NCBI GenBank assembly: GCA_001797675.1
Contig: MGQB01000013.1
Span: 1 to 64,000 of the forward strand
DNA from: Deltaproteobacteria bacterium RBG_13_43_22
GTDB lineage: Bacteria; Desulfobacterota; RBG-13-43-22
Length of the DNA stretch: 64,000 nucleotides
Direction: 5' to 3'
Shown here piece by piece: positions 13,250 through 24,458 of this stretch (its first letter is position 1; the number at the start of each line of letters is the position of its first letter). A program made the translations under genes and the position numbers. Below the pieces are notes generated by a model. It was not told where the DNA came from and did no database searches. It saw only the letters and a program-made list of their open reading frames with translations.

Positions 13250-13383
13250 GGAGTCAATTCTTTCAAATTGACAATTTCTTTTTTGTCTTTACCTCGACAG
13301 GCACTGAGATAAACTGTTCCTCGATATAATATTAGGGAAGGATTTGAAATAGAGACTTAGGTCAATATGAAAGAATTGACTCC
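13250..13383. repeat. 134-bp palindromic element overlapping the HD-GYP start codon
   Basis: The arms at 13250-13272 and 13361-13383 are inverted copies of 23 bases with one mismatch (core GGAGTCAATTCTTTCA). The right arm contains the ATG and first five codons of the HD-GYP gene. This looks like the solo palindromes left by REP-associated transposases, but a hairpin controlling translation is an alternative. Confidence 0.5.
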
Positions 13384-14938
13384 TCTTGCTCCGATGCGAC
13401 CCCCAAGACAAACCCATCCTGTCTGGACATTGGAACCCGACCAGGGAGTGCGGCCGGGAAAGGCCCAATTTCTCCTGATTCTCCTCTGGACCAGCATCGC
13501 CATGCTGGTAGGGGAATTGGGTACTTTTTCCATCCCTCTGGTTGAACAAGCGAGTCTTTTCTGGCCGGCCATGGTCTTTCAAGCCGTAGGAGGATTATGG
13601 TTTGGAGGGATTGGAATTCTCTCGGCAATGATCTTTCCCCTCGTCTCCAATGCCCTGGGCGGGTTTTCCTGGGTCCAGAATATAGCCTGGATATCGGGCA
13701 ACTTCATCCAGGGAGGATTGTTACGCTTCTATTTCCAATATAAAGGCTGGGACCCCTCTCTTCCTACTCGGAAGGAGATCTGGGGCTTTATTTGGGTCGG
13801 GGCCGTCCTTTCCAATGTCCTCGGTGTTTTGGTTACCATGACCCTGCTGGGCCTCACCCCCTACGGCCTGCCCTGGTCTAGAAGCCTGACCTACTGCGCC
13901 ACTTCCATTATCGGCAATGGTCTGCCCTGTATCCTGCTGGGGATTCCCATATTGAAAAATTTTTCACCCTTGCTCGGCACTTCTTCGTTCTTTTTCCCGC
14001 GATTATGGCTGGTAAAAAGGATCCCTGATCCGACGCCCCTGTCCTTCAGGGACTTTCCCATGGTCCTGAAACTAATGATCGGGTTTTTTGCCGGGGGCTT
14101 CTTCCCCATGGCTATCCTGGCTGCGTTTTCCGTATCAGAAAATGAACGTCAGTATAATGTGTTTCTTATCCTGGGTTTATTTTTATGCATCATTCTTTCA
14201 GGCGCCCTTGCCAAACATATAAATACCCCGCTTAATCGTATTAAAGAACGTCTTCGTCAGATCGGCGAAGGGGATTTTAAAAAAGATTTTAAGATTGAAA
14301 GCCGGGACGAACTGGGCAAAATCGGCGATGGCATTCAAGAGATGGCCTTGAATTTGGCCAGACTTTACGACGAACAGGAAGAGCTTTTCTTGGGGACCAT
14401 CCTTTCCCTGGCCGAGGCCATTGATGCCCGGGATCCTTATACACGAGGCCATTCCGATCATGTCAGTCAGTATGCTCTGAAAACAGCCCAAACCATGGGC
14501 CTTTCCGAAAAAGAGAGCAAGGGGATTTATTACGCGGCCATCCTCCATGATATCGGAAAAATAGGAATACGGGAGGATGTTTTAAATTATGACGGCTCTC
14601 TGGATCAAGAGAAATATGCCCATATGAAGACCCACCCTGAGATCGGTGCTCGCATCTTGGGAGTCGTGAAAGGGTTCGAACAAATCCGCCTGATGGTTCG
14701 GGCCCATCACGAGCATTATGACGGCACCGGATACCCTGACGGCCTTAAAGGTCAGGAGATCCCTTTGGGGGCCAGGATTATCGCTGTCGCTGATGTCTAC
14801 GATGCCTTAACTACCGATCGTCCTTACCGGGCTGCCTGGAATAAGGAAAAGGCCTTGCAAGTCATCCAGGAAAAGGCCGGTTCCCAATTTGATCCCCAGG
14901 TGGTATCGGTTTTCGTTTCAGTCCTGATGGACGCTTAA
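13367..14938 (+). CDS. Membrane-bound HD-GYP domain protein, predicted c-di-GMP phosphodiesterase
   Basis: A 523-residue inner-membrane protein. The N-terminal ~290 residues carry about eight hydrophobic helices resembling a MASE1-type sensor, followed by a HAMP-like linker (HINTPLNRIKERLRQIGEGD). The HD-GYP domain follows: HD pair His394-Asp395 in ILHDIGKIGI, then HHEHYDGTGYPDG (447-459), which contains the diagnostic GYP. HD-GYP domains hydrolyse c-di-GMP, and the ligands look intact. The first ATG lies inside an inverted-repeat arm, so the native start may be a later codon such as Met10. The last 48 codons are duplicated at 21612. Confidence 0.88.
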   Translation: MKELTPLAPMRPPRQTHPVWTLEPDQGVRPGKAQFLLILLWTSIAMLVGELGTFSIPLVEQASLFWPAMVFQAVGGLWFGGIGILSAMIFPLVSNALGGFSWVQNIAWISGNFIQGGLLRFYFQYKGWDPSLPTRKEIWGFIWVGAVLSNVLGVLVTMTLLGLTPYGLPWSRSLTYCATSIIGNGLPCILLGIPILKNFSPLLGTSSFFFPRLWLVKRIPDPTPLSFRDFPMVLKLMIGFFAGGFFPMAILAAFSVSENERQYNVFLILGLFLCIILSGALAKHINTPLNRIKERLRQIGEGDFKKDFKIESRDELGKIGDGIQEMALNLARLYDEQEELFLGTILSLAEAIDARDPYTRGHSDHVSQYALKTAQTMGLSEKESKGIYYAAILHDIGKIGIREDVLNYDGSLDQEKYAHMKTHPEIGARILGVVKGFEQIRLMVRAHHEHYDGTGYPDGLKGQEIPLGARIIAVADVYDALTTDRPYRAAWNKEKALQVIQEKAGSQFDPQVVSVFVSVLMDA

Positions 14939-14954
14939 AAACCCTTAAAGGGCT
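14799..14954 (+). repeat. 156-bp direct repeat, left copy (3' end of the HD-GYP gene)
   Basis: The last 140 bases of the HD-GYP coding region plus 16 bases beyond the stop recur at 21612-21767, with two substitutions seen by eye. The two copies bracket the accessory island. Confidence 0.9.
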
Positions 14955-14978
14955 CTGGGTAGATTCTACCATGACCCG

Positions 14979-15268: not shown

Positions 15269-15657
15269 TTGAAGATGATAGGGGAATGACCCCGATATTC
15301 CCAAAATATTTCTTTGCAAATTAGCCAGTTATATTCTATAATTCCTTTCAGTCTTTTTCTTTCAAATCCCTTGAGATCTTATGGAGATTCATGGCCCAGA
15401 TCCAGATCTCAAAAGATCCATCCAATAAAACACCCGCTTCCGGTAAGATTCAGTTGGTACCCCAGGTTATGACCCTCAGATGGAAACAGGATCAGGGTGT
15501 GTTTAACTTGAACAGAAAACCTCCTAAGCATAGAAATCAGGTGTTGAACAACTGAATTAAAATAATAATATTAAATAAATATGGTGGATTTATTTATATT
15601 TAAAATGATCAATATTAATAATTCTTGGTAATTGAAAAGAAACTATTCAATTTATTG
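15269..15657. other. Intergenic segment at the head of the cassette array
   Basis: About 390 bases with no recognised gene; a 54-codon frame at 15391-15555 matches nothing I know. The last 110 bases are extremely AT-rich and self-complementary (AAATAAATA / TTTATTTAT around 15571-15600). The segment ends at TTATTGTTGGCGCC, where GTTGGCG resembles an attC/attI right core. It could be a decayed attI or attC site and may carry the promoter for the array. Confidence 0.35.
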
Positions 15658-15827
15658 TTGGCGCCGCCCTTGAGGGCGTCGCCAATGCGGTGTTGCCCCT
15701 ATCGGTGCCATGTCCCGGTTGTCGCCGCCAAGGCAGCGCCAACCAGGCCATTGGACACCGATGTCACTCGCTTGCATGGGCCTTCGGCCCCGCAAGCTTC
15801 GTGCCACGGGTCAACGCCGCATTCGGC
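15658..15827 (+). repeat. ~170-bp structured repeat, copy 1 (5' leader of cassette 1)
   Basis: Closely similar along its length to 18763-18929. It contains nested inverted repeats: the imperfect pair TTGGCGCCGCCCTTG...CAAGGCAGCGCCAA, an outer GCCAATGCGG / CCGCATTCGGC pair, and a GCTTGC...GCAAGC hairpin with a GGGCC-TTC-GGCCC tip. It starts exactly after a GTTGG core-like word and ends 14 bases before the start codon of the next gene. Confidence 0.75.
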
Positions 15828-15841
15828 AAGAGGAGATCGCC

Positions 15842-16348
15842 ATGACATTCACGATAACAGACTATTGCGACGTGCAGGCTCGAGCTGAGGATCTCAACCT
15901 GAACAGGCCAGAGGGCCTTGCTTTGCTCCCACGCAACTTCGACACAGCAGCAATGCGTGACGAACTACTCCATGAGAGTGCAGTACAGACGGTACGCCTT
16001 CTGTTTCGGGAGAACGAGATCCCAGAAAGAAGGGTCGAACCCGAGGGCTGCAAGATCCCATGCATACAGGAGAACGAGTTCGCTCTCATACTGCCAACCC
16101 TGTTTGTGGGTTCACTCTTGTTGAGTCAGAATCCCCACCTTCTTTCGCTTGCTCTGAACGTGATTGCGAACTACGCCACAGACTTCTTCAAGGGCCTTCC
16201 GGGGCGTAACAAGGTGGTTCTGGACGTTGTCGTCGAGGACAAAAACAAGAAACTCTCAAAGAAGATTCACTACGACGGCGGAATTGATGGGCTCAAGGAG
16301 ATCACCGAGATCGCCGGAAAGGTGTTTACCGATGAAACATCCCATTGA
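15842..16348 (+). CDS. Hypothetical cassette protein A with a hydrophobic segment
   Basis: A 168-residue protein not matched to a named family. A strong hydrophobic stretch (about residues 80-112, FALILPTLFVGSLLLSQNP and onward) could insert in a membrane. A charged C-terminal part follows, with VVLDVVVEDKNKKLSKKI and YDGGIDGLKEI. The frame is open further upstream through the structured repeat, but AAGAGGAG just before the ATG at 15842 fixes the start there. It overlaps the next gene by 17 bases, so the two are translated together and probably act together. It is the first gene after the array boundary. Confidence 0.6.
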   Translation: MTFTITDYCDVQARAEDLNLNRPEGLALLPRNFDTAAMRDELLHESAVQTVRLLFRENEIPERRVEPEGCKIPCIQENEFALILPTLFVGSLLLSQNPHLLSLALNVIANYATDFFKGLPGRNKVVLDVVVEDKNKKLSKKIHYDGGIDGLKEITEIAGKVFTDETSH

Positions 16349-17057
16349 GTCATTCCGAGACCACTTCAAAGATGTGGTTGAGGAGGTGCAGCGATTCGCT
16401 GTCTTCGTCCGGGCAAAGGAGTTTCAGGAGCAGAGCATCGTCAAACTCGAAGAACTCTTGGCGGAATGTTCACAGGCTAAGGACAAGGCTATCGCCGAAC
16501 AGTCGGAGGATACGGCGAACGCATACCTGGCCTTCGAATTCATGGCAAAGGCCTTGGTGGAGGAATTCCGATTCTACCTGGCGCTCAAGGCGGATGCTCC
16601 CGATTCGGCGTGGGACCACCTTGTGAATGCCGAATCCTCGTCTGCCGCAGCAATGAAATCGCATGCTGTGGCTTCTCATCTCGATGGGTACATTCAACGG
16701 CTTCATGCTCTTGAGCGGCTCTTGTTCCCTCAACCCGTCTTCTTCAGCTCTGGATTCATCGTGAGGGAATCGGAGTGCAGCATCTGCGGCGTAGAGTACG
16801 GGGAATGTACTCACGTCAAAGGAAGACCCTACATGGGCAAGCTCTGCGCACGGATTGTGAAGAAGGCAGAGCTCCAAGAAGTCTCCGTGGTCTCCGACCC
16901 CGCAGACAAGCATTGTCGCGCCCTGCACTACACTGACAATGGAATAACGAGAAACGTGTTCACCCAACGTGCAGTCCCAGACGAAGATGCCGAACAATCG
17001 CCTCCAGCATACCCCGAAGGGCGCGCGGACGCACCCTCCGGGTCTGCTGAGGCGTGA
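16332..17057 (+). CDS. Hypothetical cassette protein B with a Cys/His zinc-type motif
   Basis: A 241-residue protein. The first ~130 residues are helical and charged. The second part carries SECSICGVEYGECTHVKGR with Cys149, Cys152, Cys159, His161 and Cys172, then KAELQEVSVVSDPAD (178-192). This Cys/His block followed by an EVS-[LV]-V-x-x-PA segment resembles part of HK97-type prohead proteases and related proteins, but no catalytic His/Ser pair is evident. The longer frame from 16164 is rejected because AAAGGTG precedes the ATG at 16332, which also gives a 17-base coupling overlap with protein A. The 3' end of the gene lies within the attC site. Confidence 0.6.
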   Translation: MKHPIESFRDHFKDVVEEVQRFAVFVRAKEFQEQSIVKLEELLAECSQAKDKAIAEQSEDTANAYLAFEFMAKALVEEFRFYLALKADAPDSAWDHLVNAESSSAAAMKSHAVASHLDGYIQRLHALERLLFPQPVFFSSGFIVRESECSICGVEYGECTHVKGRPYMGKLCARIVKKAELQEVSVVSDPADKHCRALHYTDNGITRNVFTQRAVPDEDAEQSPPAYPEGRADAPSGSAEA

Positions 17058-17066
17058 CGTTATAGC
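16990..17066 (+). other. attC integron recombination site (end of cassette 1)
   Basis: A left core of CGAAC plus AAT spacer is followed by the arm CGCCTCCAGCA. The right arm TGCTGAGGCG is its complement except for one unpaired C. The pairing continues inwards through CCC/GGG, and the right core is GTTATAG (17059-17065). The layout R''-L''-loop-L'-R' with one extrahelical base is that of an attC site. It overlaps the last codons of protein B. Confidence 0.75.
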
Positions 17067-17068
17067 AA

Positions 17069-17878
17069 ATGAAATTTACTGACATAGAGCAAGAAGTCAT
17101 TTTCCTCAAAGCGTCCAGTGAAATGATTGACTCAATAGTCAATTACGACATGCTTACTCTCAGCGGGGGAGAGGGAGGGGGTGAGGCTCGATGTAAGAGC
17201 ACCATACACCAAAGGCTCTTTAACATTTTTCTCGTTGACTTCCTGTCGAAGTCATCAGCCGAGATCGCTGGGGAGAGCAAATCTTACCTTGACGCGTTGT
17301 TAGATATTTGTAAAAGACCCATTTTCGATCAAGATCATTCTGTGCTGAAGCTGAAGGAGGCGACTCTTAGTTTTAGAAAATGGTTGGAAACCGAGGTCGA
17401 GGTTGAGATATGGCTGCCTGCAATCAGTCTTCAAACAAAGCTAATAATCCGAAGACGTGAGTTCATCAAAGTCTGTGGAAACATCGCCAAACACAATTTC
17501 TCCCGACTCAGTAGAATTATCAATGAGTTGAGGGGCATCGTTTCAAGAAACGGAATAACCATTGCCGATGAAGACGCGTTGCTTATACTTGACGATGTCT
17601 ATGAACGATTTCACACTGATATCCTGAACTGCCATGTCAGTTATGTGTTGGAACAATTAAACGATGTTCGCTGGGGTATTCATGAGTATCTTGAGCCAGA
17701 GTTTAGACGCTCAATCGTTCTTGAAAATGGTGATCCACCGAAGTACCACTACACCTTTCCTGATGGTATAAACACACATTTCGCGAGAAATTGCTACTGG
17801 GAGCTTATGAACGACGTTAGACGGCGACCATATGTCCAGAGATTCAAGACGTATGATATATTAAAAAAGGTATATTAA
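17069..17878 (+). CDS. Hypothetical cassette protein, 269 aa
   Basis: No named family recognised. The protein is predicted soluble and mostly helical. A basic segment, RRREFIKVCGNIAKHNFSRL (about residues 128-147), contains an R-x(n)-H arrangement of the kind seen in HEPN-type domains, but this is too weak for an assignment. The C-terminal half has aromatic-rich segments (YVLEQLNDVRWGIHEYLEPEF). The start codon lies three bases after the attC right core and has no clear ribosome site, so translation may begin at a later Met or by read-through. It is the sole gene of the second cassette. Confidence 0.55.
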   Translation: MKFTDIEQEVIFLKASSEMIDSIVNYDMLTLSGGEGGGEARCKSTIHQRLFNIFLVDFLSKSSAEIAGESKSYLDALLDICKRPIFDQDHSVLKLKEATLSFRKWLETEVEVEIWLPAISLQTKLIIRRREFIKVCGNIAKHNFSRLSRIINELRGIVSRNGITIADEDALLILDDVYERFHTDILNCHVSYVLEQLNDVRWGIHEYLEPEFRRSIVLENGDPPKYHYTFPDGINTHFARNCYWELMNDVRRRPYVQRFKTYDILKKVY

Positions 17879-17884
17879 GCATGA

Positions 17885-17948
17885 ATCAGGGGTTGCTCAA
17901 TCAGCGGAAAAGAGCGCCTGCCTCTGGCTGATTCCTGTGTTGGACGGA
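17885..17948 (+). other. Degenerate attC-like site (end of cassette 2)
   Basis: The right core GTTGGAC (17940-17946) fits GTTRRRY. Inner arms AATCAGC and GCTGATT pair, followed by AGAG/CTCT around a short loop. The left core (expected R-Y-Y-Y-A-A-C) is not recognisable, so the site is either decayed or misread. Confidence 0.4.
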
Positions 17949-17957
17949 GTCTGAATT

Positions 17958-18689
17958 ATGATGGATAATGAATCTACCAAGATAATACTATGCGCGCGCT
18001 GCCAACAGCGCCTTCGCGTCCCCGTCAGGATTGGAAAGATAAGGGTTAAGTGCCCCAACCCTGAATGTAGATTGCAGTGGGAAATGGATACGGGTGAACG
18101 ACCGTACGAGCCCGTTCGATTGCCGTACCAAGTGGTTGATATCCAACAGGGGACTGCGGCCTGGCATGCATGGCGAGACCAAGGCCTTGGCGCTTCGGAT
18201 GCTCCCACCATAATGGGCGAGAACCCATGGAAAAGTCGTGGGAAACTCCTGGATGAGAAGCTGCGAAGGGTCAGAGTTCGAGCCAGTGAAGCTATGGCTC
18301 GCGGAACTGCTTTGGAACCTGAAGCGCGAAAGCAATACGAGCGGAAGACCGGGATTTCCGTTCGTCCATTATGCCTCCAAAGCACAAAGTTTTATTGGCT
18401 ACTGGCGAGCGTTGATGGGCTCTCCGATGATGGTAATTCCGTAGTCGAAATTAAATGCGGAAATATGGTTTACAGACATGCGGCATCGACCGGACAGGTC
18501 CCCAAATACTACTTTGGGCAACTTCAGCACATCCTGGCGGTAACGGATCTGGCCGAGCTTGATTTTTGGTGTTATCTGCCGGGCCGGCCCGATGTTCACC
18601 TTCGAGTTGAGAGAGACGAACACTACATCGAAAGGCTCTTGCAGATTGAGCAGAGGTTCTGGGAAGAGCTTCGGAAGCTCAGAGAGTAA
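17958..18689 (+). CDS. YqaJ-type (lambda-exonuclease-like) nuclease with an N-terminal zinc ribbon
   Basis: A 243-residue protein. Residues 10-41 form a putative zinc ribbon (Cys12, Cys15, Cys32, Cys37). A YqaJ/PD-(D/E)XK nuclease core follows: QQGTAAWHAWRDQGLGASDA (63-82), a LEPEARKQYE segment with Glu120, Asp153 in LLASVDGL, Glu164-x-Lys166 in VVEIKCG, and QLQ at 188-190. The active-site residues are complete. Phage YqaJ and lambda Exo proteins digest double-stranded DNA for single-strand-annealing recombination, usually with a partner annealase, which is absent here. The zinc-ribbon fusion is unusual. GGAG lies upstream of the ATG. This is the third cassette. Confidence 0.8.
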   Translation: MMDNESTKIILCARCQQRLRVPVRIGKIRVKCPNPECRLQWEMDTGERPYEPVRLPYQVVDIQQGTAAWHAWRDQGLGASDAPTIMGENPWKSRGKLLDEKLRRVRVRASEAMARGTALEPEARKQYERKTGISVRPLCLQSTKFYWLLASVDGLSDDGNSVVEIKCGNMVYRHAASTGQVPKYYFGQLQHILAVTDLAELDFWCYLPGRPDVHLRVERDEHYIERLLQIEQRFWEELRKLRE

Positions 18690-18697
18690 AAATATTC

Positions 18698-18768
18698 GTC
18701 CAACAATGGGATGAACTCGGATTCTAAAATGCTATCGCATTTAAAACCGGTTATCTCAATCGTTGGTG
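18698..18768 (+). other. attC integron recombination site (end of cassette 3)
   Basis: One of the two best attC sites here. The left core GTCCAAC (18698-18704) fits R-Y-Y-Y-A-A-C exactly and is complementary to the right core region ATCGTTGG. The arms GGGATGAACTCGG and CCGGTTATCTC pair with two single unpaired bases (G and T), and the stem continues into CTAAAATGC/GCATTTAAAA around a four-base loop. The cut position G^TT is at 18762/18763, precisely where the second structured repeat begins. Confidence 0.85.
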
Positions 18769-18929
18769 CCGCCTGCGGCGTCGCCAATGCGGCGTTCCCC
18801 CTATCGGGTCCATGTCCCGGTCGGCGCCGCCGCAGGCGGCACCAACCAGGCCATTGGACCTCGATGTCACTTGCTTGCATGGCCTTCGGCCCCGCAAGCT
18901 ACGTGACACGGGTCAACGCCGCATTCGCC
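18763..18929 (+). repeat. ~170-bp structured repeat, copy 2 (5' leader of cassette 4)
   Basis: Similar to 15658-15827 over its whole length. A perfect 18-bp inverted repeat lies at 18763-18780 and 18828-18845, with further pairings: GCCAATGCGGCGTT with AACGCCGCATTCG, GTCAC with GTGAC, and GCTTGC with GCAAGC. It starts at the cassette cut site and ends 18 bases before the next start codon. Confidence 0.8.
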
Positions 18930-18947
18930 TAAAATGGAGGATAAGGT

Positions 18948-19301
18948 ATGGAGCCAGTATGGATTCCTCTTGTATCTGGATTGTTGGGTGCTCTTGTGGG
19001 GTCTGCTTCCTCATTAGCCGCTATATTTATGCAAACAAGAGCACAACAGAGGCGTGAACGACTCCGCTTGGTTATCGAAGCCGCCATGCAAGATCACCGG
19101 AGCGTTCTTGAACTTATGAAACTTCCAGGAGGGCCTACAAGCATTCAACCTCTCCCAAGTTATATCTACTATCACTTACGGTTCATGAACCTTATCGAAG
19201 AGAGTCATTTGAGTCCCGACTCTATGAAAGAATTGGACAAGGAGATGGCTGAAGTTTACCAGGTCTGCAAGGAACCAACGAGAAAGGATTCAAATTCCTA
19301 A
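18948..19301 (+). CDS. Small membrane-anchored cassette protein
   Basis: A 117-residue protein with one N-terminal transmembrane helix (about residues 5-27, WIPLVSGLLGALVGSASSL) and a short periplasmic start, followed by a basic Q-x-x-R-R-E-R-L junction and a helical cytoplasmic domain. This layout is common among hypothetical proteins in integron arrays. No enzyme motif is visible. GGAGG lies at a good distance before the ATG. It is the only gene of cassette 4, preceded by the second structured repeat. Confidence 0.65.
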   Translation: MEPVWIPLVSGLLGALVGSASSLAAIFMQTRAQQRRERLRLVIEAAMQDHRSVLELMKLPGGPTSIQPLPSYIYYHLRFMNLIEESHLSPDSMKELDKEMAEVYQVCKEPTRKDSNS

Positions 19302-19336
19302 GAATTAGAAGGAAAGAGTGCACAAATCTAAAAAAA

Positions 19337-19398
19337 TTGCCAACGGCAGAACTTCAGCCGATTTTATACGCGCTGTAGGGTTCTGTGCCATTCGTCCA
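19337..19398 (+). other. Degenerate attC-like site (end of cassette 4)
   Basis: The left core TGCCAAC is near consensus. The arms GGCAGAACTTCAGC and GCTGTAGGGTTCTGTGCC pair with small bulges. The right core (CCATTCG where CCGTTGG is expected) is altered, so the site may be inactive. Confidence 0.45.
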
Positions 19399-19421
19399 AA
19401 TAGATAGTCAAGGCCGAGATA

Positions 19422-20300
19422 ATGATGCTGAAACGTTCTATGTACTTTTTAAGTTCCCTTTTTCTCGCTAGTTGCCTTTTTGTCGTTTCAATCCCAGCGC
19501 TTGCTGATATGCGTAATGTCCCGCTAGCCGAGGTCCTTTTGCAGGCCAAGAAAGGCAATCCAGAAGCGCAGGACGAGCTGGGATTTCGGTACTCCATTGG
19601 CCTTGATGTCGATCAGGACTATGTTCAGGCTGCAAAGTGGTACCTATCTGCAGCTGAGCAAGGACATGCCAAAGCACAAAACGAGATAGCAGGTTTCTAT
19701 GACAAAGGCATTGGTGTTCCCAGGGATCAACGGAGAGCAGTTTACTGGTACGAAAAGGCGGCCACTCAAGGCTATCCTCCGGCCCAGTATAATTTGTCCT
19801 TAAAGTTGATCTTGGGGGAAGGGGTGAAAAGGGATGCGATTCGATCTACATCGTGGCTTAGGAGCGCCGCCGAAAGCGGAAAGGCACCGCAGGCCGAATG
19901 CAACTTGGGCGTAAGGTACCTAAACGGTGTAGGGCTGAAGAAGGACCTCCGGGAAGCGACCAGGTGGTTTCGTAAGTCAGCGGATCATGGTTACCCTTTA
20001 GCTATGTTCAACATGGCCAGTAGCTACGTGCGTGGGGATGGCGTAAATAGAGATTTGGTTCAGGCGTATAAATGGCTCTATCTATCCACAGGCGCAGGAG
20101 CAAAACAGAAATTGGTATTCGAAAGAGCCAAGACAGAAGCAAGGATGGGCCACTCTGAAACCACTTTATGGCTTTATCCTTTGGAGGGGGCTCAGCTGCG
20201 TAAAGCCCAGAAGGGATTAGAAATTCTGCGGGAATCTATGACAGAAAGTCAAGTGTCTGAAGCCATTAAGCAAGCAGATAATTGGAGTCCAAAAGAATAG
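19422..20300 (+). CDS. Exported Sel1-repeat (TPR-like) protein
   Basis: A 292-residue protein. It begins with a signal peptide (about residues 1-29; basic MMLKRS, hydrophobic core, cleavage near ALA-D). Four to five Sel1-like repeats follow between residues 35 and 225, each with the A-x-x-x-L-G-x-x-Y pattern and the W-[YFL]-x-x-[AS]-A-x-x-G turn (AAKWYLSAAEQGHAKAQ, AVYWYEKAATQGYPPAQ, ATRWFRKSADHGYPLA). Sel1 repeats mediate protein-protein contacts, so this is a periplasmic or secreted adaptor and not an enzyme. The C-terminal 60 residues lie outside the repeats. It is the only gene of cassette 5. Confidence 0.85.
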   Translation: MMLKRSMYFLSSLFLASCLFVVSIPALADMRNVPLAEVLLQAKKGNPEAQDELGFRYSIGLDVDQDYVQAAKWYLSAAEQGHAKAQNEIAGFYDKGIGVPRDQRRAVYWYEKAATQGYPPAQYNLSLKLILGEGVKRDAIRSTSWLRSAAESGKAPQAECNLGVRYLNGVGLKKDLREATRWFRKSADHGYPLAMFNMASSYVRGDGVNRDLVQAYKWLYLSTGAGAKQKLVFERAKTEARMGHSETTLWLYPLEGAQLRKAQKGLEILRESMTESQVSEAIKQADNWSPKE

Positions 20301-20343
20301 TGACACATTGACGGGTGACGAAACTGCTCATTGTACAGAGAGG

Positions 20344-20403
20344 GGCGAACAAGGCTAATGCAGCCGACGCAAAAAGCCGCGCGGCTGATTAGCAGCGTTG
20401 GGC
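20344..20403 (+). other. attC integron recombination site (end of cassette 5)
   Basis: A compact classical attC of about 60 bp. The left core is GGCGAAC and the right core GTTGGGC (20397-20403) fits GTTRRRY exactly. The arms GCTAATGCAGCCG and CGGCTGATTAGC are complementary except for one unpaired G. The loop is A-rich. Length, cores and the extrahelical base all agree with integron cassettes. Confidence 0.88.
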
Positions 20404-20422
20404 AGGGAGATATTAAACACCA

Positions 20423-21223
20423 ATGATTAGAAAATCATTACATCGCGTACGAGAAGCAACATTTTGTATTGAGCTTCCAAATAAAGCAGCGCATGACATG
20501 CCAATGCCAACGGGGACAGGCTTTTTCATTTCACCTGATGGATGGTTTGTTACTGCTGCGCATGTTACGTCAGAAAATGGCAATTCTGATGGTCCACAAA
20601 GGAGTGATATAGATAAAGCATGGCTAATGAAAGAACATACTGCCGGTATAATAGGAGCAATGTGTCAGTTTCCTGAGCTACTGTATGTGCTCCCACGATA
20701 TGATATTTCTTTATTGAAGGTAGATTTTCCAAAAAATTCAAATAAAGAATGGTTAAAGGGTAAAACTGAGTTTCCTTTTATACCTGTTTCTAAAAGACCA
20801 TTGGAAATGGGAGAACCTGTTTATTCTTTCGGCTATCCTCTTTCCACAGGGATAGCTAAAAAAAATGGTTCTGCTGTTATTGGAACCACACAACTAAGCC
20901 CACGACTCACATCTGCCATTGTTTCCTCGGACTTAGAAAAAACCAATATTATAATGACCAGTGGTGATACAAAGCATTATGTTTTAGATAAAGCGCTTAA
21001 TTATGGGAACAGCGGCGGTCCAATTGTTGCCGTTGAAACTGGATACGTACATGCATTGTGTTCACGATTTCAGCCTGTATTTGTGCCCCAAATGCATATG
21101 GCAAATGAAAAAGGAGAGTACCCGGTAGTGATGATTCCAAGCCTCTATGGCGTTGTATCAAGTTTGGAAAATCAGGAAATACTGAATCTGTTCGAAAAGC
21201 TTGGGATACCCATATCGGATTGA
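20423..21223 (+). CDS. Trypsin-like serine protease (S1 fold), cassette gene
   Basis: A 266-residue protein with a full trypsin-type triad: His47 in VTAAHVTS, Asp94 in RYDISLLKV and Ser197 in YGNSGGP. It lacks a signal peptide and a PDZ domain, unlike the HtrA/DegP enzymes, so a cytoplasmic role is likely. Stand-alone trypsin-like domains of this kind occur in several defence and signalling modules, but no partner is visible. The gene is clearly richer in A and T than the cassettes at 15842-18689, as expected for cassettes of different origin. It begins 20 bp after an attC right core and is cassette 6. Confidence 0.85.
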   Translation: MIRKSLHRVREATFCIELPNKAAHDMPMPTGTGFFISPDGWFVTAAHVTSENGNSDGPQRSDIDKAWLMKEHTAGIIGAMCQFPELLYVLPRYDISLLKVDFPKNSNKEWLKGKTEFPFIPVSKRPLEMGEPVYSFGYPLSTGIAKKNGSAVIGTTQLSPRLTSAIVSSDLEKTNIIMTSGDTKHYVLDKALNYGNSGGPIVAVETGYVHALCSRFQPVFVPQMHMANEKGEYPVVMIPSLYGVVSSLENQEILNLFEKLGIPISD

Positions 21224-21278
21224 ATACAGGCTAGTGGAGTACTCTTGAAATATTGAAAACCAATGCTTCTTAAATGAA

Positions 21279-21316
21279 GCCCAACCCGTCGCTCAAGCCG
21301 ATCGCGGCCCGCTGGG
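21279..21316 (+). other. Truncated attC (left half only)
   Basis: GCCCAAC at 21279-21285 is a perfect left core, followed by a CTCAAGCCGATCGCGGC arm and loop typical of attC. The matching right arm and GTTRRRY core are absent. The sequence instead enters the inverted-repeat element beginning at 21325. The site seems to have been cut by that element or by a deletion. Confidence 0.55.
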
Positions 21317-21324
21317 GAGGAATA

Positions 21325-21603
21325 GGGGACGTCCTTAAATAAGTAAATAACTTGACAGGCCAATTGCGGATAGACCGGGAGGGCCTTTTTTCAAGGAGTC
21401 GGATAAAGGCCAGGGCGGATGGCAGAGGATTATGCTGCTACTGGGCGGCACGAGAGTTGGGCTATCCTTTGACAGAACTTGCCCGGCGATTGAACATAAC
21501 AACTCTCGTAGTGGTATATGCTGTGAGAAGAGGCGAAAGTATCGCTAAAGAGTCTGATTATAGCCTATTAGATTGAGTTATTTACTTATTTAAGGACGTC
21601 CCT
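21325..21603 (+). mobile_element. REP-type transposase remnant flanked by 27-bp inverted repeats
   Basis: Perfect 27-bp inverted repeats lie at 21326-21352 and 21576-21602 (outer word GGGACGTCC). The interval is almost exactly a 74-codon frame without ATG, whose C-terminal part (CYWAARELGYPLTELARRLN, then YAVRRGESIAKESDY) resembles the DnaA-like helix-turn-helix tail found on some REP-associated Y1 transposases. The catalytic HUH/Tyr domain is missing, so this is an inactive relic. Confidence 0.55.
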
Positions 21604-21611
21604 AATTATTC

Positions 21612-21767
21612 ACGATGCCTTAACTACCGATCGTCCTTACCGGGCTGCCTGGAATAAGGAAAAGGCCTTGCAAGTCATCCAGGAAAAGGCCGGTTCCCAA
21701 TTTGATCCCCGGGTGGTATCGGTTTTCGTTTCAGTCCTGATGGCCGCTTAAAAACCCTTAAAGGGCT
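21612..21767 (+). pseudogene. Duplicated 3' fragment of the HD-GYP gene
   Basis: A direct copy of 14799-14954. It reads DALTTDRPYRAAWNKEKAL onwards to VSVLMAA-stop in the same frame as the intact gene, with Q-to-R and D-to-A changes seen near the end. No start or upstream domains are present. It marks the right edge of the accessory island. Confidence 0.9.
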
Positions 21768-21810
21768 GTGTGATAGGGGTAGGGGTCTCTCCAGACCGTT
21801 TCGATTAACT

Positions 21811-24148: not shown

Positions 24149-24458
24149 TTCATTTTCCTCCAATACTCAAACCCTGCCGTCTCTGCGGGTTCAGCGAGAG
24201 CAATGAGGTTCATCAATAAAAAAGTTAATTGGCCGGTCAAAAATGACGACTGTTTGAATGGGTGGCTCTTTTGAGATATGGATTCGAGCCATGAATCTCC
24301 TCAAGATCTAAAGGAAGAATGTTGTAAGATTAAGGTTACTTGGAACTAATTAACATAACTATATAATTTGTCAAGAAAGTTATTAGGCAGAGGCTGTTTT
24401 GGCACGGATGTCGCGGTTAAGCTTGATCAGCCACGGACCCATACGGAAGCACACGGAC

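Follow-up and report, generated by a model that had tools for sequence, protein, structure and literature searches.

The segment 15308-21320 of the window, i.e., the whole 64,000-nucleotide stretch that we analyzed (positions 1-64000 of contig C13 in the source genome, G000), is probably an array of gene cassettes on a genuine attI platform; this genome has about twelve such platforms, and an integron integrase (IntI) likely acts on the array in trans. G000 comprises 3.23 Mb in 39 contigs and is 85% complete. We compared it primarily with G001 and G002, two genomes of the same genus, and G042, which belongs to another family of the phylum.

An earlier note on this DNA had recognized six short gene units on the plus strand between 15.8 and 21.3 kb and had described them as an array of six gene cassettes with attC sites. 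The array itself was borne out against shuffled controls, with attC sites at the positions given there, and six cassettes indeed carry genes; however, the total is eight, as two ORF-less repeats of ~160 bp had been overlooked (Table 1). The cargo is diverse: the two ORFs of cassette 2 have no family match in Pfam or NCBIfam, whereas the ORF of cassette 4 matches PF09588 (1.2e-27) and TIGR03033 (8e-38). A role of the cargo in defence was considered and dropped, PADLOC matching only the protease domain of cassette 8. The terminal site at 21279 had rightly been described as truncated: it retains the left arm alone and is cut by the inverted-repeat element that follows. A small ORF in that element shows weak similarity to the DnaA C-terminal domain (E 0.016).

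Table 1. Coordinates of the platform, cassettes and associated sites in the window
Feature	Position	Strand	Description
Family A platform	15308..15657	+	Dispersed repeat (~15308-15450) fused to attI module (~15500-15657)
intI ribosome-binding site relic	15510..15524	-	From aligned upstream flanks of the G042 and G002 family A sites
attI core GAAACTATTCAATTTATTG^TT	15639..15659	+	Pattern match with 1 mismatch; crossover 15657/15658
Cassette 1	15658..15821	+	Dispersed attC-like repeat lacking an ORF; A^TT at right end
Cassette 2	15822..17059	+	Two overlapping ORFs, function unknown (15842-16348 and 16332-17057)
attC of cassette 2	16989..17065	+	Generic score 56.6, trained score 51.7; best in the window
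Cassette 3	17060..17939	+	ORF 17069-17878, function unknown; degenerate attC ~17885-17946
Cassette 4	17940..18762	+	ORF 17958-18689, YqaJ/lambda-exonuclease family protein
attC of cassette 4	18698..18768	+	Trained score 45.1; second in the window
Cassette 5	18763..18923	+	ORF-less; further repeat copy with 87% identity to cassette 1
Cassette 6	18924..19390	+	ORF 18948-19301, function unknown; degenerate attC ~19333-19396; right end A^TT tentative
Cassette 7	19391..20397	+	ORF 19422-20300, Sel1-repeat protein (PF08238, 7.8e-45)
attC of cassette 7	20344..20403	+	Generic score 56.1
Cassette 8	20398..21320	+	ORF 20423-21223, trypsin-like protease (PF13365, 6.8e-14); attC left arm from 21279
Inverted-repeat element	21321..21607	.	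32-nt terminal repeats, 94% complementary; truncates the last attC

The attC sites were evaluated with two scorers. The generic one combines core motifs with arm pairing and yields 0.25 hits scoring at least 55 per 64-kb strand of shuffled sequence. The trained one consists of left and right profiles plus a stem score, an architecture adopted because a MAFFT alignment of mixed attC sites misaligned their variable center; for the window its training sites all came from other loci, and none of eight shuffled 64-kb runs produced a hit of 33 or more. The sites of cassettes 2 and 4 are its two top hits in the window. Thus, the three sites that had been called full attC (16990, 18698 and 20344) each rise above shuffles in at least one scorer, the first of them in both. 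The site at 20344 fails the trained left-arm profile owing to a one-base shift in its left arm. The attC at 18698 resembles one standing behind an attI in G042 (contig C21), i.e., in another family. The sites at 17885 and 19337, previously judged degenerate, do not stand out by score, and the left arm at 21279, although the third-best left-arm hit in the window (15.0), is supported by its position rather than its score, since shuffle maxima reach 17.4. Hence, support is weaker for three of the six attC sites noted earlier. An Rfam search of the window gave no match. Together, the locus shows what is expected of an integron cassette array, namely attC sites with paired arms and an R' core of the form GTTRRRY between genes. 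By our own scorers it also has two or more attC sites and lacks a neighboring intI, as in a CALIN; however, it is not a bare CALIN lacking attI, as an attI core stands at its head.

The array begins exactly at this conserved core. G000 contains twelve such cores, distributed over ten contigs and falling into three sequence families, which share 170-370 bp of conserved sequence before the crossover point. Family A comprises the window platform and those on C15 and C3, which are 85-87% identical over 280-370 bp; the attI part of the window platform is also found in G001 and G002. Of the eight family B members in G000, six display a promoter-like TTGTCA-N17-TATAAT located about 165 bp ahead of the junction. 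Families A and B end in related cores, GAAACTATTCAATATATTG^TT and AAAACTTTAGAATAACTTG^TT, and a third core family is represented on C22, with a similar sequence in G001 (C260). The combined core pattern finds matches in all three genomes of the genus and none in two genomes of a sister genus. Across the phylum, one or more cores occur in 50 of 395 sampled genomes; by our own count, the cores total about 105, compared with about 10 matches to the reversed pattern used as a control. Dispersed attI platforms are a recurrent pattern, seen within the genus and also in one other family at least. Among 84,980 named species genomes, a set that may not include G000, the exact B core is found only in the MAG JACQYK01 (Deltaproteobacteria bacterium NC_groundwater_1539) and one Verrucomicrobia MAG. 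Phages and plasmids were set aside as routes of spread: 2.9 million viral contigs contain no exact core, the unit cassette was not found in plasmids and the array head was not found in phages.

The first part of the window platform is of a different nature. Together with 24251-24378 on the minus strand, 15308-15450 belongs to a dispersed palindrome-like repeat with a promoter-like start and GATCTTGAGGAGATTCATGG; repeats of this type are scattered widely through G000, G001 and G002, in most cases with no attI. The idea that the whole upstream flank is an ordinary dispersed repeat held for the first ~145 bp only and excludes the attI part. One and the same fusion to this repeat is found in all three G000 modules of family A, so at least these were duplicated after the loss of intI.

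The cores were identified as attI because in G042 an intact 480-codon intI lies ~190 bp from a family B module, the module pointing away from the gene, which is the canonical intI-attI layout. Further, family A cores adjoin intI 5' ends in G001 (C137) and G042 (C64, C69 and C27), and family B cores adjoin intI 5' fragments in G001 (C121) and G002 (C34). In the window, the core has the head-of-array position and the G^TT of an attI, with intI itself gone: homology with the intact loci reaches no further than the start codon of intI. The window therefore holds no complete integron, in which intI would adjoin attI, and the earlier statement that it encodes no integron integrase stands. None of the twelve G000 cores has an adjacent intI; one (C20:37258) keeps only the first 20 intI codons beside its attI. 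A genome-wide search recovered one IntI, on contig C28 (2-718), which scores 295.6 bits against TIGR02249 (curated cut-off 265) and has the integron-specific insert; the contig end truncates its N-terminus. With the intact B-type IntI of G042 it shares 89% identity, and a search of the whole G000 genome with the full G042 protein found no other intI. The C28 enzyme is of the B type; a cognate enzyme for the family A attI, the type in the window, was not found in G000. Thus, the description of the locus as an integrase-less attC cluster holds locally, but the genome has an IntI and the array its own attI. The juxtaposition of such a cluster with acyl-CoA genes, formerly seen as its notable point, gives way to its being one of about twelve dispersed attI platforms in the genome. 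In G042 several intI fragments occur in one genome (C46, C62, C63, C78, C13 and C86), as might result from recurrent loss of intI or from contig ends that split the genes.

The ORF-less repeat of cassettes 1 and 5 is present at ten places in G000, in part as partial copies, and its arms pair with few unpaired bases in an attC-like manner. On C8 (L020:14709-14888), this repeat splits a TetR-type gene exactly at G^TT, and the orthologues of this gene in G001 and G004 are uninterrupted at the insertion point. From these junctions, the repeat apparently behaves as a gene cassette without an ORF, its oddity being a right end at A^TT rather than G^TT. We had also considered a structured RNA or a MITE, and dropped both in light of the TetR insertion at G^TT and the junctions. 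One ORF-less cassette type stands behind both family A and family B platforms. A second, unrelated ORF-less repeat cassette, likewise ending in GCCGCA^TT, often follows attI in G042, G120 and G020 (loci L175, L229, L230, L236 and L239).

Genome comparisons point to the use of these platforms. The attC-like sites number 50 in 272 kb downstream of cores versus 1 in 122 kb upstream (~22-fold, p 3e-7) with a scorer trained in part on sites of that kind; the untrained scorer, at scores of 53 or more, gives 26 downstream versus 0 upstream. The sequences following the cores mostly differ from each other, with a TT start in 50 of 52, and cassettes are shared among different platforms both within and between species. 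Four of the twelve G000 platforms (C12, C15:91952, C22 and C26) have no recognizable attC or repeat cassette behind them. At one orthologous locus, G000:C36 and G002:C29, the neighboring gene is 93.7% identical over 840 residues and the promoter-attI module 83% identical over 177 bp, with unalignable intergenic DNA preceding it; similarity ends at the core, beyond which the cassettes differ, the G000 side extending ~410 bp to the contig end. Such a pattern would be expected of a maintained platform with cassette turnover.

The surroundings of the window array display some further features. A 159-bp direct repeat (98%; 14799-14957 and 21612-21770), corresponding to the 3' end of an HD-GYP gene, flanks the platform and array. 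An inverted repeat with 23-nt arms lies at 13250-13383, its end sequence encoding MKELTP, the start of the HD-GYP ORF; the MKELTP start also precedes a truncated intI in G002 (C102). Synteny of the HD-GYP gene in G001 and G002 revealed no clear orthologue, so no empty site was found for the window array.

In the scenario that we favor, the window platform would have lost intI from the start codon onward, and an IntI encoded elsewhere, on C28, would probably serve the platforms in trans. This enzyme would recombine the attC of circular cassettes with attI at G^TT, i.e., at 15657/15658 in the window, and the promoter kept in the platform would read into the newest cassette. Recombination in trans is our inference from the sequences, as are continued activity of the platforms and expression of cassettes from their promoter. 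We likewise infer that the C28 IntI is complete and able to act on both main core families, the latter being suggested by the single ORF-less cassette type behind families A and B. In draft and metagenome-type assemblies such as these, intI could lie in gaps near some platforms, and this would count against action in trans. The more far-reaching version, a polycentric integron in which one trans-acting IntI serves about a dozen selected promoter-attI platforms lacking their own intI, with parallel capture and expression, we regard as an evenly balanced proposition.

The alternative that merits the most attention is a degraded, inert integron, in which intI was deleted, nothing acts in trans and a fossil array merely retains its attI. 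The degenerate state of several attC sites, the insertion that cuts the last one, the decay of intI into fragments in G042, G001 and G002 and the incompleteness of the C28 intI in the assembly all fit this picture. Yet the genome has an IntI, different platforms share cassettes, and the orthologous promoter-attI module is better conserved than its flanks while the cassettes behind it differ; we therefore hold inertness to be rather unlikely. Off-target insertion, with the cores being ordinary intergenic sequences (attG) met by IntI by chance, does occur in G000, as the ORF-less cassette at a non-att G^TT on C8 indicates. As an account of the platforms it is nevertheless very improbable, given the 170-370 bp of conserved sequence before the crossover point and the recurrence of the cores across species and families, including next to intI in G042.

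Two other readings deny the integron nature of the flank or of the array. If the flank were some scattered promoter or repeat element with no relation to integrons, and cassettes stood behind it by chance, one could point to its first ~145 bp, which are found at many places without attI; but at many loci the attI part ends precisely at the cassette junction, and it has attC-like sites after rather than before it and occupies the canonical position beside intI in several genomes, which makes this reading highly implausible. Even harder to credit is an ordinary operon in place of cassettes: the genes do lie on one strand with close spacing and several attC candidates are weak, but the trained attC scores are far beyond those of shuffles, the junctions fall at G^TT and the repeat cassette of the array is present at many loci. 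A cassette array on a genuine attI platform, probably served in trans, remains our preferred explanation.

An integron typically has one attI near its integrase, and attI sites outside class 1 are poorly described and usually undetected (PMC9024848). The system in G000 resembles a chromosomal integron in its G^TT attI core, promoter-like sequence, attC cassettes and TIGR02249 IntI in the genome, but differs in having about twelve attI platforms without a neighboring intI. Proposed origins of CALINs include off-target insertion, intI loss and rearrangement (PMC8618304), and their mobilization in trans is considered possible (PMC12444791, PMC9668308). The window array is CALIN-like in its attC sites and lack of a nearby intI, but it carries an attI module of its own, whereas the definition of a CALIN considers only attC. 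The ORF-less cassette at G^TT in the TetR-type gene, away from an integron, recalls attG insertion; however, attG sites share only a short consensus, unlike the long homologous sequences of the platforms. The Delta-attI-type cassettes of mobile integrons likewise have attI away from its usual single position, and such a displaced attI can recombine (PMC12901181), but those are attI fragments within resistance-integron cassettes, in contrast to the chromosomal intergenic promoter-attI modules seen here. Cassettes 1 and 5 are short and have no reading frame, as in ORF-less gene cassettes, but differ in being highly repeated in one genome, often in first position, and in their A^TT right end. We found no prior description of multiple, dispersed or second attI sites in the open-access papers searched; within that set, a dozen attI platforms in one genome has been undescribed so far.

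In the textbook integron, a single attI beside the integrase makes cassette order and expression one queue. If our reading is true, many Pc-attI platforms fed by one integrase would provide many first positions that are expressed simultaneously. It would also supply a concrete origin for some 'integrase-less' attC clusters, and, if the polycentric version holds, some arrays currently filed as CALINs would be functional platforms whose attI sites have gone undescribed. The attI core RAAACTWWWSAATAWHTTG^TT, with its low control rate in the 395-genome sample, offers a simple handle for locating such platforms. Thus, a single distant integrase may feed many gene-capture sites rather than one.
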